Origin: Xiphias gladius
Lineage: Eukaryota > Chordata > Actinopteri > Istiophoriformes > Xiphiidae
Direction of reading: 5' to 3'
DNA length: 64,000 nucleotides
Assembly: GCF_016859285.1 (NCBI RefSeq)
Contig: NC_053410.1
Span: 22,647,558 to 22,711,557 of the forward strand
Below the pieces are notes generated by a model. The model had not been told where the DNA came from. It made no database searches and saw only the letters and a list, made by a program, of their open reading frames with translations. The position numbers were made by a program, and so were the translations under genes. This document shows, in pieces, positions 11,931 through 64,000 of the stretch (positions are counted from its first letter, which is position 1; each line of letters opens with the position of its first letter).

Positions 11931-14291
11931 ATGTGGAAGGACTCCAGCAATGGTAAGAGCTGTTTATAGTCTATAAAAGTTAGGAAAACAAGGGATTTTG
12001 CTGGTTGAGATAATCAAAAACATTCTTTTTTAAGTTCGGTTTGCTTCTTTTATTCATAATCCGCAGCCATGTCTTAGATGATGTTAACTTTTTGTATGAT
12101 TTTGTATGAAATAATCGAAATAGTGTTTATTTAACCTGCCTGCTGTACCAGGTGGATGGGTTTTACTGCACCAGGACGACTTAAGACAGGTAGTGTCAGG
12201 CAGCGCGCCAATAACAGAAAATCCCCTTAAAATGAATTTCAGATTCTTCTGTTAGGTTGTGCAAGCATGATGGCACTCATTGCATATACTAGAAGGCAAA
12301 ACACAGCAACCTACTTCCTAGGTGGGCTAAAAACAAACATTTGTTCAAGAATTTGCATTTATTAGAACCAGGTTTGGTACAATGAATAGATTAATACTGG
12401 CAGCAGATTTTTTAAAATAAGCTAGAGTCCTTTGCAGCCTCAGTGTAAAAAGAAACAGGCCTGCTGCACCACTGAGCACTTGGCTGTTAAAGATAATTGG
12501 TTCAAAAGTTACCTTTTTAAAATTTGAATTTCGCAGCATAAACAAATTCAGATATTACAACAACAGAACCATGCAAACAGCAAGGAAGTTAATTATATAG
12601 TATGTGTCAGTGTACATATTCAACATTCTGCAGTGGTGAAGTGTATTGTTTGGTTGCAGCTGCAGCGAGAAGCCTGTACTGACCACACACTCCTTGGTTT
12701 ACAATAAGGACTTTATGCAGAACAGATGGATAATAAGGGAAGAATATTTGTTATGGATCCTGTCTGATATGGAACCTGCTCTCCTCTCTCCCCTCAGATG
12801 ATGCCAGACCTGCAGCCTCCAGCGGCGGCTCCTCTCGCAGCGCTAGCCGCAGGAAGAGAACCAGCTTCTCCAAGGAACATGTGGAGCTCCTACGTGCCAC
12901 CTTCGAAACCGACCCCTACCCTGGCATCAGCCTCAGAGAGAGCCTGTCCCAGACCACAGGCCTGCCGGAGTCACGCATCCAGGTACACAGGCACCTCGTG
13001 CCAACTTATATAGCAGAAAGCCTTATCTGTGGAATAGATATGATGATGAAATAAATAAACTGTCAGTAAAATTGCCAGTTCAAATACATTTAGAATTATA
13101 TTTATCTTTATTTGGAAAATTGGATATCGCTGTTGTTTCAAGAATGAATGGCACATGCATGCTTTACACATAAACATATACAGTAAGTACAAACATACAC
13201 ACGTATAGTTACTGTCGTAAGGGATTTTGCACTGTGGATTCTTATCATAAAAAGCCTTTGTTTTCAAATGCATCCTGCATAGAATTGTAGATACAACTAT
13301 CACTCTATCACTTTATTTCTTTATCTTTAGAGATGACACAAGCTGCTTTTATCAGGATCTTGTTTGACTGGACAGATAGCCTGTACAACAGGCTCTGAAA
13401 GCTGAGAACTACAAGATTTGCTCTGTCCCTACTCCACTGGTGCCCAGAAAATGATTAACAGAACAGAATGTGTTGCTTTATCTGTCCTTGCTTTGAATCT
13501 AAACTCCTTTTTCTCTCATTCCTGTCCAGGTGTGGTTTCAGAACCGTAGAGCTCGCACCCTGAAGTGCAAAGGAGCAAAGAAAGCACTGTGGCACTCTGA
13601 TACCCCAGTCCAGGACACACTCCCTCCACCTCATGTTGTTGCCAACAGGGGATCACGGGTCGTCCCCATCCCCCTGCCACCTCAGGGACCCCCACCAGCC
13701 TACCCAACCCTGGTGAAGGAGGAGATGGAGGAAGCCTGCTACTATCGACAGTGTCCTCCAGCTTACTCCACCATTGAGGAGCATGGACATTACAGCTCCA
13801 TGTATGGGCTCCAGCAGGGCAGACTGCTGGGCAGCAGCTCAAGCCCACCCCTGAGGGGCTACTGGTCCCAGGCAGGCAGCCAAACCTCCCCTGTCCCGCC
13901 GCTGTGGTGCCATTCTCCCCTGGAGATGAGAAACTATAGCTCGAGTTCCAGCCAGACAGCAGCCTTCATGTATCCAGGATCAGCAGAGCAGCAAACATAC
14001 ATGACCTCTTCCACCTCCCAGTCCTCCACCCCAGACACCCCTGATTCTGGATACTGGGATGCCAGTCTGGAGAACAGCCCACCACTAGAAGGTCAGTACT
14101 CGCAGCTGGAAGATTCATGGAGCGGGGTTATTCTGGAAGGCTGCGTGGAGTCCAGACATCAGGGGCTGGTCCAGCACGCCCCCCTGCCTGAGCTCTCCCT
14201 GCATGAGATCTTAGGGGAGTTGGATGAAGACTGGCTGGGAGGAGAAGGACTGGATAGCCATGCCACTGGGGAGAAAATGGCTTTCTGCTGA
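11931..14291 (+). CDS. Mix-type (mxtx-like) paired-class homeobox transcription factor
   Basis: The gene has three exons: 11931-11952 (MWKDSSN plus one base), 12798-12982 and 13530-14291 (TGA). They join in phase to 322 residues. The homeodomain covers about residues 25-84. It starts [19 protein letters not shown], has [14 protein letters not shown] and the third helix [16 protein letters not shown], and carries glutamine at homeodomain position 50. The intron between SRIQ and VWFQ falls at the usual site in helix 3 of paired-class genes. After the homeodomain comes a long Pro/Ser/Tyr-rich region and an acidic C-terminus ([17 protein letters not shown]), a plausible activation domain. There is no paired domain. 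The sequence best fits the fish Mix-type group (mxtx1/mxtx2, yolk-syncytial-layer regulators); sebox/mezzo or mixl1 are less likely. A nuclear DNA-binding role is certain by family; the exact orthologue is inferred. Confidence 0.88.
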
Positions 14292-24408: not shown

Positions 24409-24439
24409 ATGGCCAACGGAACCGGTACTATCATGTTAA
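24380..24439 (+). promoter_or_regulatory. Upstream ORF overlapping the rhoq start
   Basis: Five tandem ATG codons begin a 19-codon frame ([19 protein letters not shown]). It ends 31 bases beyond the rhoq ATG in a different frame. An overlapping upstream frame of this kind can reduce main-frame initiation. The start is longer upstream (24224) if the earlier in-frame ATG is used. Confidence 0.4.
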
Positions 24440-25427
24440 AATGCGTCGTGGTCGGAGACGGTGCAGTGGGCAAAACGTGTCTTCTGATGAGCTATGCCAA
24501 CGACGCCTTTCCCGAGGAGTATGTACCCACGGTCTTTGATCATTATGCAGGTATGAAAACAGTTCCTCTATTATTCTGTCCATTTTGTACGTCTAATAAT
24601 AACATGGTGACATGCCGAACTGCTGCTCTTCTGTTTCACAACGATTCCTCAGTATAAAATCTAACAAGGGGGAGGATAATACGTAGAGAAATGCCTGAGT
24701 GAATTCCCTGTTTCCTCTGCCACTCTTTCTCCAACTGCATTGGCTTGCATCTGTTGCTATAATCAAAACCACTTGTTTGCCTTCTTCATAGCAGAGAGGG
24801 GTTGGGGGACCCTGAGCCCCCTCCCTCCCTCCCTTCTCTCTCGTTCCTCCTCTCAACAGCTCTTTGTCATTTTTCTTGCAGTGAGTGTCAACGTCGGTGG
24901 AAAACAGTACTTGCTGGGACTGTATGACACAGCTGGTCAGGTACAGTTTATTCTTTACTTTGACCAAGTGCCAAGCATGTCAAGGACACACACACACACA
25001 TATTACACACTCTTTCACTCTCTCCGTCTCTCACTCTGTCTCTATCTCGGCCTCCCAATGTGCTCCTGGGACCAGTAACTATCCCACAGTGCCTCCATCA
25101 CGCCCACAGGCTTCATATTCAGGCCAGACACTAAGCTGCAACAGGTGATGGTTTTCGCACACGGGTTTACTGCCAGAGTCTGGTGTGCCACGGACAGTGA
25201 TGGTAGTGAAGGGGTTTCAATAGTTCTATTATGTGGAGAACAGGGCTCCTATGTCCAGTAGTGATGTCACAGGTTTGTTAATAGGGCTGCCTAATGCCTG
25301 GGCTTTTTCTTTACAATGTGCCATTCAGTGGACAAGAGTTATAACTGCACTGAAAATGCGCTGCCCTACACACACACAATAGTGTTTCCACTCAGCAGAG
25401 GAGCTAGTGTTTACAAACACACGCACG

Positions 25428-31500: not shown

Positions 31501-34500
31501 TATATAGTATATACGGGGACAGAGGAAAGCACATTGGTTGTAGATACCCGAATACCTGAAGACATGTCACCTCTCATCCAAGAGGCTTCCTGATTTCTGA
31601 CTGACTGTTGGGGAGTCCCAGGTATTTAACCTGGGGTTGTTATCAAGGCCAAGTTTCAAGTTTATTGTCATATACTTGATAACAATGTAAATGTCATTAC
31701 CAGTAATGAAATTCACCATTGATGTCACTTGGTTCTTTAATGCTCCTGGCTGTTGTAACGACAGTCATCAGAGTCATTGGAGTCACCTGAGGCCATGTGT
31801 GAATAATGGACCAGTTTCTGTCTGAGTGTGTTGCTGAGTTTGAAAAACACAGGACTACGGTGCTTGTTGAAGATCCTCCTGAGTTTCTCAGAAAAAGACA
31901 TGTATGGGATGATGATATTGTTGCATCTATTCGTCATTTCTTCACCGCCCACAGTGTTGGTGTTCTTCCTGGATTTTGTGGCTGTTTTCATAACGGTCCA
32001 GTTAGAATATCCACAAGCTTTAAGTGAATCCTTCGGATGTTTGTACTCCTTCTCTTGGGCTTGGGCTCTTGTTGGCACATTATCAGCTCAGTGGTGCAGG
32101 GTTCTGATAACTCCTAGATTATGTTCCAGTGGGTGGTGAGAGTCAAACAATAAGTATTGGTCTGTATGTGTGGGTTTCCTGTATACTCCAATGTGGAGGC
32201 TCCTGTCTACTTTGATGTGTACGGCACAGTCCAAAAAAGCCAAGCTGTTGTTCCTGACATCCTCTCGCGTGAATTTGATGTTACTGTCCACTGACTTAAT
32301 ATGTTCTGTGAAGGTTTGCACTTCCTGGGTTTTAATTTTGACCCATGTGTTGTCCACATATCTGAATCAGTGGCGTGGCGCTGTTCCTCTGAAGGAGTTC
32401 AGGTCTCTGCTTCCTACTTCTTCCATGTAGAGGTTGGTCACAGTGGGGCATACGGATGAGGCCATGGCATAGCAATGCTTTAATCTGTAAAACCCCCTGT
32501 TGTACTGGAATTAGGTGGTGTTCAGACAGAGGTCCAGCAGTTTGCATGTCTGGTCTGGGCTGAGGTTGGTTCTATTATTAAGTTTATTGTCGTGTAGCCA
32601 TCATTACCTTTGCACGGCCTCCATAGTTGGGATGCATGCAAACAATGAGGTCGCATCATATGACACCATGGTTTCATCAGGGTCCCGTTTCAGTCCTCAA
32701 ACCTTGTTCACAAGGTTTGAATATGGTGAGGTGTTACACCAGCCAAGGGAGCTAAGATGGTAACTATATGTTTGGCAATGTTGTAAGTAGCTGAGTTAAT
32801 GCTGCTAATAGTAGTAATGATACATGTTCTTCCAAAAAGGGTAGAATGAGCTCAATAAAGGTACAGTAGTACCTGATAAGGTTGGGCATTATGATGTTAT
32901 ACTGAGCAAATATACATTTGCTGACTGACCGACATTGTAGCAAATCTATGAGCAGAACAAGCTTTATGGCTTTACTGCATTTATTGGCTCTATTGTTGCA
33001 TCATTGTGATGAGGTACCTGGATTTTTCAGGTATTTCATTTATAAATAAAATAAGTTAATAAGCCAAAATCTGATCAGTAGCCTTTGCTGTGTGATGTAG
33101 CATGAATACTTGCTTTGCTACTTGCTAAAAATATAAAAGACCATCTTGCGATGGGATCGCACCAGCCGTGAAACCCGTCAACATGTTGATGTTCTGACCC
33201 ATGAGTACTCAGTATTCATTTGTACATTATCATATGAGTACTCAGTAGTTATTACTACATTATTACATGAGTACTCAGTACTCATCGGTCTGCCCAGGCC
33301 CATCTTCGAACTCCACCTTCATTTTGATCTCAACTACACACCTATAAAGTTTCGTGAGTGTATCTTGAAAAGTTGGGACGCTATCGTGGTGACAAATCTG
33401 TCCACAGATAGACAAACAGACAGACAGTTTAAACACCTGCCAAAGTACTCTGCCTCTGTGGTAGTTCCCACTACGGTAGGCGTCTCCAGGACCACATTTT
33501 TGCCATGATGACACACACACAAACTCACCAGGTGAGAACAATACCAACACGGCTGTCGTAGCTGGTAAAAATCCCTGAGATATAATAAAAGGTTACTCAC
33601 GCGATTTAGTATTGCACTTTAGTTGGGGCACTCCCAAGAGAGAGAATTTTTTTTTTTTAAAAAGATATCCAGATATCTTGACTTTATTCCGTAGTAAGGG
33701 TGAGGCTCCAGAAAGCATTTCTTTCAAACCCACTCCTCCAATTTGTTAAATTTCAATTCAAATCCAAGATAGCCCTGATGACAGCATTGCGTTTTTTTTT
33801 CTGACTTCCTAAACTTTGGACTTTGGACAGCTCTTTGGGGGCAAAGCAACAGAAGACATTATACAAATGTTTTCACAGGATGAATAGGAGTCCTTATGAC
33901 AAGCAAACTGAACTTCACGTGCAGAATTGGTGGAGTGCCCCTTTACAGGGATAGCTCCCATGGTATATGGTACGGCAAAATCAATGACACTAAAGCTTCA
34001 GCTCGCTTCTAACCATACGACAAAAAAATCAGATGTGTGTAACATAGTATTCACAAAATCTTGTCATTTGAGTCAGGTTGTTTGAAGCACCAGATAGTTG
34101 GCTATCACAATTGATTTATCACTTCAGGAAGTCCAGACAGTGTCAGGTAAGCTGCCAGTTACAGGAAAGTTACTTTGCTGACTGCGTTGTCAACACAATC
34201 AATCGTCCCATATGACATTCCCCAACCCTCTGGCACTCTAAGAAGTTAAAAACAGCCTCTAAGAATTATGTCCTGCATGAGGTAGGTCTGTGAACGCTGT
34301 GAAATACTGTACTCATTTGGAAGGAATGAACAACTCATACATTTTTGAATTATATCCACTTGATCCACTGCAGTGAGGCGTATCTACTATATGAGCACAG
34401 GCGTAAAGATTTGCTGCTTTCATCATCTACTCCAATCTTATATAAAGTCAGTATATCTTAAATTCATTACAAAGGCGTCAGAAGATGACACTCTTGCCTA

Positions 34501-46992: not shown

Positions 46993-48057
46993 TTACAGTG
47001 TCAGAGAGAGAAACTCCTGCTGGGTCTTGGGATCTGAATGTTCCCAGCATGACAGTTGTTACAGTCTTGTGCATTCATCTTCTGCACACCTCTCATCACC
47101 ATGCACATGCGTAATTAAAAGTAAGAAATCCAAAGAGACAGTTTAACTTAGCATTAAAGTCCAAAGAACATGATTTACACAGAGGACCTTTGTGTTGCAA
47201 CATGTTTGAAAAAGTGTAGGTGACTAAGAGATCATGGATCTCCACACTATATCCTGTCAGTGGTCATATCACCGTTTGTTTTTTAAATATTTCAATAAGG
47301 CTGTTTTAAGATGCTCAAAATATTCAGGAGGTTTTCATCTGAACTGTCTGGGGTCAACCCATTAATTATATGTCCTCATTTGGTGCATATACTGTACCAC
47401 AAAACCAAAATAACAGGCTTTTGTGAGTTTAACTTCCACAATCAGAATAGCAATGACACATTAAACCCCTGCTCACATATGTCAGATTCAATTTCTGGAG
47501 AATTTTTTTTGAAAATTAATGTGAGTGTGTTAGGATTAAGACAAAGAGTTAAAACTCACACAGCTTCAATTGCCACTGCCCCTCCAGCAGGCTCCAATGC
47601 CTCATTTATGGCTGTTGCTATCTGTTTGGTTAGACGCTCCTGAACTGTGGAGAAAAAAAAAAAAAACACAGTGACTGTAACACAGGGAGGAAAAAACACA
47701 AGAAAGATTATGAAAATAAAAGAATAAAGTCAAACATATTTTTACCTTGAAGCCCCCTGCTCAAGACTTCAACGATTCTGCTAGTTATGCACTCTGTGTT
47801 ACTGGAGAAAATAATGATACAATCAAATATGGCAAATGTGTATTCTTAGATTCCAATATTTTGTAGAACTGCATAGCTTTGGTTGTGCATAAGGGTGTGC
47901 GTAAAAGCCCCTCCTGCTCTGTGTTCTCTCCTAGCTCACTCAGTAAGGTGCTGTAAGCTTTCTCTATGGAACACAACTTGGTCGAATCTTCAGCTTCCTT
48001 TGAGTCTTTGTCCCCTTTGCACAAATCACTATGTTTAGTATAAATGCACTTGCTCAT
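46993..48057 (-). pseudogene. GTP cyclohydrolase I pseudogene (gch1/gch2-like), exons 2-3 missing
   Basis: Four pieces of a GTP cyclohydrolase I gene lie in order on the minus strand. The exon 1 part (47867-48057, from an ATG) reads KAYSTLLSELGENTEQEGLL, then RTPL and KAMQF, where homology stops. Exon 4 (47746-47777, 32 bases) reads IVEVLSRGLQ. Exon 5 (47560-47644) reads QERLTKQIATAINEALEPAG then GAVAIEA, with good splice sites on both sides. The exon 6 part (46993-47111) reads RMCMVMRGVQKMN and then loses frame. One extra base follows that Asn codon, and about two bases are missing before PKTQQEFLSLTL and its stop. The acceptor before exon 6 is also lost. Exons 2 and 3, which carry the zinc- and substrate-binding CEHH region, do not fit in the 89 bases between exons 1 and 4. 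The enzyme makes dihydroneopterin triphosphate for tetrahydrobiopterin and pteridine pigments; this copy cannot. Introns show it is not a retrocopy. Confidence 0.85.
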
Positions 48058-48126
48058 AGTGAAACTCCATTCTGAGTCTTGGCTGCTTTCAAGGAAAGAC
48101 GCTGTATGATACAGTTGAATGCCTCC

Positions 48127-62600: not shown

Positions 62601-64000
62601 ATGAAGAAAGCGGGCAACATGTGGAGCAACCTGAAGAGCAAATGCCAGACACTCTTTCACAACAACAGTTCAGGACCCAGTGAAAGCAGGGTTGAGGCAG
62701 ATGCCGTCCACTGTGTGGTGGATCTTGGCCAAGGAGGCAGCTCAGGTGATGCGCATGCATCAGGAGCCTCCAGCCCATCACGGAGCCTCCTACCAGTGCC
62801 AATGGTAACAGCAGGACGCCGCCATCACAACTGTGTGTCGGACATCCCTCAGATAGTTGAGATCACTATTGACAAGGACACTGAGGATATGCGGGGGGGA
62901 TCAGGGGGTGTTCCCCTGGCCCGGAGAGACTCCTATTCCCGTCATGCTCCATGGGGGGGCAAGAAAAAGCACTCATGTTCCACCAAAACCCAGAGCTCTC
63001 TGGAGGGTGATAGGCGGTCTGGGCGTTTACGGGGGAGTGGCAACCGTAGGGACAGGCGTTATGGAGTCAGCTCCATCCAGGAGATGAGTGACTCTGTATC
63101 TGGAGGACGCAGTCTGAATGCTCGGTCTTTACGCCAGCGGCTAAGTGATACAGTAGGACTATGCTTACCCCTGCCTACTCGTAGACGCTCCCGTTCATCT
63201 AAGAACCCTGTCACCTCCAAACGTAAGATTCACTTGACAGAGCTCATGCTGGAGACGTGCCCCTTCCCACCAGGCTCAGACCTTGCTCACAAGTGGCACT
63301 TGATCAAGCAGCACACAGCACCGGTCAGCCCGCATTCCTCCACTGCCCTGCTCGATGCCTTTGACCCGGCCCACCCCTCTCCTGAGGATGAAGAGGAACG
63401 TCTACGTGAGCGCCGCAGACTTAGCATTGAGGAAGGTGTGGACCCACCACCTAATGCACAGATCCACACCCTGGAGGCCTCAGTGCCGGGGTCCTCTCTC
63501 TACAAACTGGGACCAAAGATGGCTCCTGGCATTGGAGAGGCCTCTGGGGATGGCCGGGCCTCAGGGACCGGCAGCTCTGTTGGTGCTGGATCATCAGGGG
63601 CCTGTGGGCAGGTGTTGGGGGCTACAGCGTCCGCCCACGACTGTGATTCTGAGGAGGATTCAACCACCCTCTGTCTGCAGGCAAGGAGGCCCAAGCAGAG
63701 GCACGCCTCTGGGGATGGTCACATGAGCCGGCAGCAACCTGGGCCCTGGAAGGTTCACACCCAGATAGACTACATCCATTGCCTGGTGCCAGACCTATTG
63801 CAGATCACAGCTCTGCCCTGTTACTGGGGCGTGATGGACCGCTACGAGGCTGAGGCACTGCTGGATGGACGGCCAGAGGGCACCTTCCTGCTGCGTGACT
63901 CCGCCCAGGAGGACTACCTCTTCTCCGTTAGCTTCCGCCGTTACAACCGCTCACTGCATGCCCGCATCGAGCAGTGGAACCACAACTTCAGCTTTGATGC
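62601..64000 (+). CDS. socs5: Suppressor of cytokine signaling 5 (N-terminal part, runs off the window)
   Basis: A single open frame runs 466 codons from ATG 62601 to the window end. Its start [19 protein letters not shown] fits the family start (M..VGKMWNN.K..CQ.LF), just after an acceptor at 62580. The conserved N-terminal blocks are present: [99 protein letters not shown] and [14 protein letters not shown]. The SH2 domain starts at about residue 406 with [15 protein letters not shown]. It includes the phosphotyrosine-binding FLLRDS, and continues to WNHNFSFD where the window ends; the rest of SH2 and the SOCS box are outside. SOCS5 dampens JAK-STAT and EGFR signals as a Cullin-5 E3 adaptor. 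A Gly/Ala/Ser-rich insert (about residues 313-340) is longer than in human. Teleosts may have two copies; a or b is not decided. Confidence 0.96.

Follow-up and report, generated by a model that had tools for sequence, protein, structure and literature searches.

A dead GTP cyclohydrolase I gene flanked by rhoq and socs5 in the swordfish is the sister of gchIc and may mark its parent locus

GTP cyclohydrolase I (GCH) catalyses the first step in the synthesis of yellow pigment and of BH4. Among the GCH genes described in vertebrates, gchIa and socs4 are linked in every vertebrate examined, and gchIb (gch2), which lies on zebrafish chromosome (LG) 12, is linked to socs5 in frog and zebrafish (PMC1890551); because of this second linkage, a gch gene adjoining socs5 occupies the site expected of an ancestral gchIb-type gene. 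A further gene, gchIc, has been described from pufferfishes, stickleback and gilthead seabream, and in medaka pik3r2 and ankrd47 flank the gap where it would sit, an order also kept in pufferfishes and stickleback (PMC1890551). Its origin was reported to be elusive in 2007: that paper gives zebrafish chromosomes 20 or 3 as the expected location of a fish-duplication paralogue of gchIa or gchIb, and because of this expectation no evidence was seen there for a fish-duplication origin of gchIc (PMC1890551). A search by title and start of abstract, with most subscription papers lying outside its scope, returned no later study of the origin of gchIc.

The socs5 genes themselves have been mapped in zebrafish, where socs5a1 lies on chromosome 12 and socs5a2 on chromosome 13, both with calm2b, ppm1, epas1 and prkcea; calm2b and ppm1 also adjoin socs5b on chromosome 15 (PMC3238403). 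The zebrafish 12/13 pair suggests that blocks of the chromosome 13 type are the place to look for the origin of gchIc. This argument is weakened by another account of the family, according to which SOCS5a has lost one of its 3R duplicates and the extra zebrafish and catfish copies arose by chromosome duplication or in a species-specific way (PMC6368001).

Here, we report on a 64 kb window, the whole stretch of DNA analysed (C11:22647558-22711557 of the 691 Mb swordfish genome; C1, C6 and C9 below are other chromosomes), and confirm that the locus at 46996-48070 is a copy of the GTP cyclohydrolase I gene that has introns and is dead. Its closest relative is a gene on C6, C6a, the apparent orthologue of gchIc of pufferfishes, stickleback and gilthead seabream (PMC1890551). 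The two differ: the window copy stands on another chromosome among other neighbours and is dead, whereas C6a is an intact model. Like gchIb of frog and zebrafish (PMC1890551), the window copy adjoins socs5, but it differs from the probable swordfish gchIb on C9 at 97 of 319 shared exon sites, and the C9 gene sits with msh2 and fbxo11. The gch2 pseudogenes of Sinocyclocheilus cavefishes likewise represent mutational loss of fish gch2 copies; there, however, two cave species have neither ohnologue intact (PMC7826195), whereas intact relatives remain in the swordfish genome. We read the pseudogene as the dead sister of gchIc left at the gchIc parent locus, a copy having moved away and the parent having decayed, and give this reading a probability of roughly 0.58.

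The recognizable pieces lie on the minus strand and correspond to exons 1, 4, 5 and 6, with their order kept (Table 1). When the C6a protein was compared with the whole window by tblastn, five minus-strand segments with E below 1e-6 fell in the pseudogene interval: exon 1 (48111-47866, 83.6 bits, E 4e-21), exon 5 (47645-47559, 48.1 bits, E 4e-9) and, for exon 6, three segments in different frames (31.6, 27.7 and 20.0 bits, joint E 9e-7). Two other matches elsewhere in the window, both on the plus strand, are at chance level (22.3 and 21.6 bits; E 0.7 and 1.3). Markov-shuffling the 64 kb 30 times gave best scores of 20.0-26.2 bits per shuffle, and a chance match as the source of the GCH similarity was rejected against the 83.6 and 48.1 bits of exons 1 and 5. 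Exon 4, too short for tblastn, was found by DNA comparison (44 bp at 84% to C6a), so that similarity extends across several ordered exons; exon 5 by itself also matches solved GCH I structures, with a best E of 1.2e-6. A genome search with Pfam PF01227 (15 matches, 19 candidates scored) did not include the pseudogene locus among the matches listed. The first-pass annotation had placed a decayed GCH I gene with introns in the rhoq-socs5 interval, and the tblastn matches, the splice sites and the identities of the neighbours bear this out; tblastn and the DNA comparison agree with its assignment of the blocks to exons 1, 4, 5 and 6 in order. The start codon homologous to that of C6a falls just beyond its interval (46993-48057).

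Table 1. Features of the window (window positions) and of the other GCH loci in the swordfish genome (chromosome positions)
Feature	Position	Strand	Remarks
rhoq (TC10), first two exons	24409-24940	+	TC10 131 bits vs 93 for the next, CDC42
GCH pseudogene, exon 6 core	46996-47108	-	one base added and five bases missing relative to C6a; acceptor AG lost
GCH pseudogene, intron 5 stretch	47199-47367	.	85% match at C11:22626805-22626974; probably an inserted repeat, by assumption
GCH pseudogene, exon 5	47560-47644	-	85 nt; frame open; acceptor and donor retained
GCH pseudogene, exon 4	47746-47777	-	32 nt; AG and GT retained
GCH pseudogene, gap replacing the end of exon 1, exons 2-3 and introns 1-3	47778-47865	-	exon 1 to exon 4 spacing 88 nt, vs 1064 nt in C6a
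GCH pseudogene, exon 1 remnant	47866-48070	-	start codon homologous to that of C6a at 48070; 3' end and donor lost
socs5 coding exon, truncated by the window end	62601-63998	+	Pfam SOCS (PF12610) and SH2
C9 gch	C9:7.6166-7.6197 Mb		six-exon model, AG/GT at all junctions, 234 residues, CEHH site
C6a gch	C6:10.8078-10.8098 Mb		six-exon model, AG/GT at all junctions, 227 residues, CEHH site
C6b, tandem copy of C6a	C6:10.8213-10.8228 Mb		9 of 314 aligned exon sites differ from C6a
gch1-like gene	C1:31.489-31.506 Mb		exons 1, 3, 4, 5 and 6 present

The damage proposed for the locus was also recovered. Exon 4 has the length expected from the annotation, which is equal in C6a and C9, and the splice sites around exons 4 and 5 are intact as claimed. 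Exons 2-3, said to be gone together with the CEHH site, have no credible match within the window (best 19.2 bits, E 0.63), and the two frame breaks reported in exon 6 are its two length changes, beside which the acceptor of this exon has been lost. The reading frame at the 48070 start is broken by further changes, and an ATG at 48057 opens 64 codons through the exon 1 remnant. Because exon 2, which carries the CEHH zinc/substrate site of the enzyme, is missing from the pseudogene, no GCH enzyme is expected as its product. A processed (reverse-transcribed) pseudogene was rejected, as introns 4 and 5 are present. The 169-base stretch in intron 5 has a second copy 68 kb away, and two places carry it among the matches listed, very common words having been skipped.

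Names of neighbouring genes are readings of open reading frames (ORFs), some of them supported by domain or structure searches. In the window, 292 of 435 aligned residues of SOCS5 (67%) are identical to human SOCS5; published identities are about 60-72% for SOCS5a and 42-48% for SOCS5b (PMC6368001), and the window gene is, to judge from its sequence, SOCS5a-like. Upstream of rhoq lies a two-exon homeodomain gene (12821-13592), of the mxtx/mix kind by eye, and a minus-strand ORF at 32091-32366 was judged by eye to resemble part of a retroelement.

The genome holds two intact GCH models, C9 and C6a, whose exons 2-6 have identical lengths of 110, 56, 32, 85 and 130 nt, and the best candidates of the PF01227 search include exon 2 matches on C9 and C6 only. 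The tandem copy C6b is likewise dead: exon 1 carries a frame change and exon 2 a stop, exon 4 is shortened and 6 bases are missing from exon 5; its exon 3 was unmatched at the C6b locus. In the gch1-like gene on C1, exon 2 (CEHH) was not found in the 12.6 kb separating exons 1 and 3 (C1:31.4892-31.5018 Mb), which is either an assembly fault or a genuine loss. Around C6a we identified ORFs with a p85-type SH2 domain and a coiled coil (pik3r2, by eye) at C6:10.7925-10.7961 Mb, PDE4 at 10.772 Mb and a KANK-type ankyrin ORF at 10.8346 Mb, which matches KANK1 and KANK3, ranked below many designed ankyrins. C6a is taken as gchIc because these pik3r2 and KANK-type neighbours match the published gchIc locus, and it is apparently the gchIc orthologue; the pseudogene lacks the pik3r2-ankrd47/kank3 location and sits between rhoq and socs5. 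The neighbours of C9 read by eye and with Pfam as kcng3 (potassium channel), cox7a2l, msh2 (MutS), fbxo11 (F-box, beta-helix) and lhcgr-type (receptor) ORFs, genes that we take to lie on human 2p. The gchIb region has been tied to a block of human chromosome 2 containing SOCS5 (PMC1890551), and from these two observations we infer that C9 is probably gchIb (gch2).

Of the 319 shared exon sites, 56 separate the pseudogene from C6a and 104 separate it from C1, the corresponding figure for C9 having been given above, and all of 200 bootstraps (100%) recover it in a clade with C6a and C6b. A C9-like or gch1-like origin, which would join it to C9 or to C1, was rejected (AU p=0.0003 each), and in the protein test joining it to C9 alone gave an AU value of 0.008. 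Nine residues are exclusive to C6a and the pseudogene among the vertebrate rows, two of which (54 and 72) also occur in the outgroup; a single residue is common to C9 and the pseudogene and absent from C6a. The pseudogene and the C6 (gchIc) gene are sisters, a relation absent from the first-pass annotation; with C6a accepted as gchIc on the evidence of its neighbours, gchIc lies nearer to the pseudogene than gchIa or gchIb does.

The substitutions also bear on when the copy died. C9 and C1 allowed 36 of the 56 differences from C6a to be polarised, and the remaining 20 were dropped. Substitutions at codon positions 1/2/3 number 7/6/8 in the pseudogene alone, 3/1/11 in C6 alone and 11/4/27 in both. 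In the pseudogene, 13 of 21 private changes are at positions 1 and 2, as expected without constraint (p=0.65 against the neutral two-thirds), whereas the shared changes and the C6 changes depart from that proportion (p=5e-5 and p=0.002, respectively). Comparing codon-position patterns directly by Fisher's test, the pseudogene differs from C6 alone with p=0.049 and from the shared stem with p=0.063. From these tests, therefore, the ancestor was constrained, C6 is seemingly still constrained and the window copy has been mostly unconstrained. The best estimate of the constrained share of the pseudogene branch is about a quarter, with an interval of 0-0.8 (0-0.87 with a pooled rate). We favour a loss soon after the split from the C6 lineage; a late loss of function lies within the 0-0.8 interval. 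The fairly recent loss proposed in the first-pass annotation is thus unsupported by the private substitutions, wide as the interval is; the annotation had read it from the mix of near-intact and ruined exons. Beyond the exons, a couple of dozen exon-edge bases are all that still align with C6a.

In the history that we propose as the most economical, a gch gene would already have stood next to socs5 ahead of the fish-specific genome duplication. This event would have yielded two copies, one of which survives as gchIb (C9), while the other would have remained between rhoq and socs5 on C11. An intron-bearing copy of this second gene would then have moved at the DNA level to the pik3r2-kank interval on C6, becoming gchIc, and the C11 parent would have relaxed, lost the end of exon 1 through exon 3 by deletion and collected further damage. 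Homology, exon order, damage, the sister relation to C6 and the neighbours are observed; which way the copy moved, and that its line goes back to the genome duplication, we infer from synteny, and the timing is likewise a proposal. The parent locus may be the genome-duplication partner of gchIb. A socs5 neighbour is seen, and the papers on the socs5 copies point both ways. The protein tree in which gchIc and the pseudogene join gchIb has an AU value of 0.63, vs 0.48 with the two as the oldest branch, values that neither tell these placements apart nor root the clade. The stretches around the C9 gene and on C11 show no shared gene (0 seen, 110 kb around C9 vs the window), the duplicated block being known from papers alone; neither socs5 nor rhoq was matched in the 110 kb around C9, and none of six C9 neighbour pieces was matched in the window. 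The full statement, that the pseudogene is a fossil of the gchIc birthplace and gchIc is the fish-duplication partner of gchIb, relocated by copy-and-loss, is a tentative one, to which we give slightly less than even odds.

The sister relation by itself has no direction, and the move could have been the reverse, with gchIc arising elsewhere and a later DNA copy landing by chance between rhoq and socs5 and dying there. The C6 gene has indeed been copied before, and its tandem copy C6b is also dead. Against this stands the chance landing beside socs5 that it needs, the gene to which gchIb is reported to be linked in frog and zebrafish (PMC1890551); moreover, between positions 40001-64000 of the window and the fetched C6 region, matches at E 1e-4 or better consist only of the exons and scattered, repeat-like short matches. 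We consider a reverse move unlikely. A different objection concerns the age of the lineage. The gchIc gene and the pseudogene may descend from the early vertebrate genome duplications and have been kept near socs5 by chance, an option named in the 2007 paper (PMC1890551), compatible with the protein tree in which gchIc is the oldest branch, and in keeping with the two old lineages, a and b, of SOCS5 itself (PMC6368001). The sites shared across the clade point the other way: by our own reading of the outgroup-polarised sites, gchIc groups with gchIb at five (45, 55, 88, 99 and 146) and with gchIa at one (140). C9 and C6a have 14 sites in common against the gchIa group, vs five common to C6a and the gchIa group against C9, and placing gchIc and the pseudogene with gchIa in the protein tree gives an AU value of 0.047. 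The window SOCS5 is, moreover, SOCS5a-like in its identity to human SOCS5, and well above the range published for SOCS5b. Such an old third lineage appears improbable.

Two further explanations would deny that the gene is simply dead. The locus might still be used, through a spliced non-coding or short-peptide transcript, given that exon 1 is open from the ATG at 48057 and that exons 4 and 5 have kept their splice signals; however, constraint is unseen in the private substitutions, exon 1 has lost its donor and exon 6 its acceptor, and we hold continued use to be very improbable. Alternatively, assembly errors in a working gene might account for the frame breaks and the missing exons, as they might for the gch1-like gene without exon 2 on C1 of the same assembly. 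The damage is, however, of several kinds (a deletion, two length changes and a lost acceptor), substitutions are evenly spread and the window contains 0 unknown bases, which makes this explanation scarcely credible. The reading that we prefer remains that of a gchIc parent locus whose copy moved and which itself decayed.

The first-pass annotation had suggested that loss of a GCH paralogue could bear on pigment biology in this lineage, and cavefishes offer a known case of gch2 loss in connection with pigment (PMC7826195). The pigment-loss reading is weak because the intact models C9 and C6a remain; GCH activity may have moved and not been lost. Dead copies of duplicated genes are ordinary and common. 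The value of this one is that it stands at the expected ancestral gch site and is the sister of gchIc, the gene whose origin has been described as elusive (PMC1890551). The origin of gchIc thereby receives a concrete answer that can be checked in the rhoq-socs5 interval of other teleosts, and relocation, if true, would answer the question raised in 2007.
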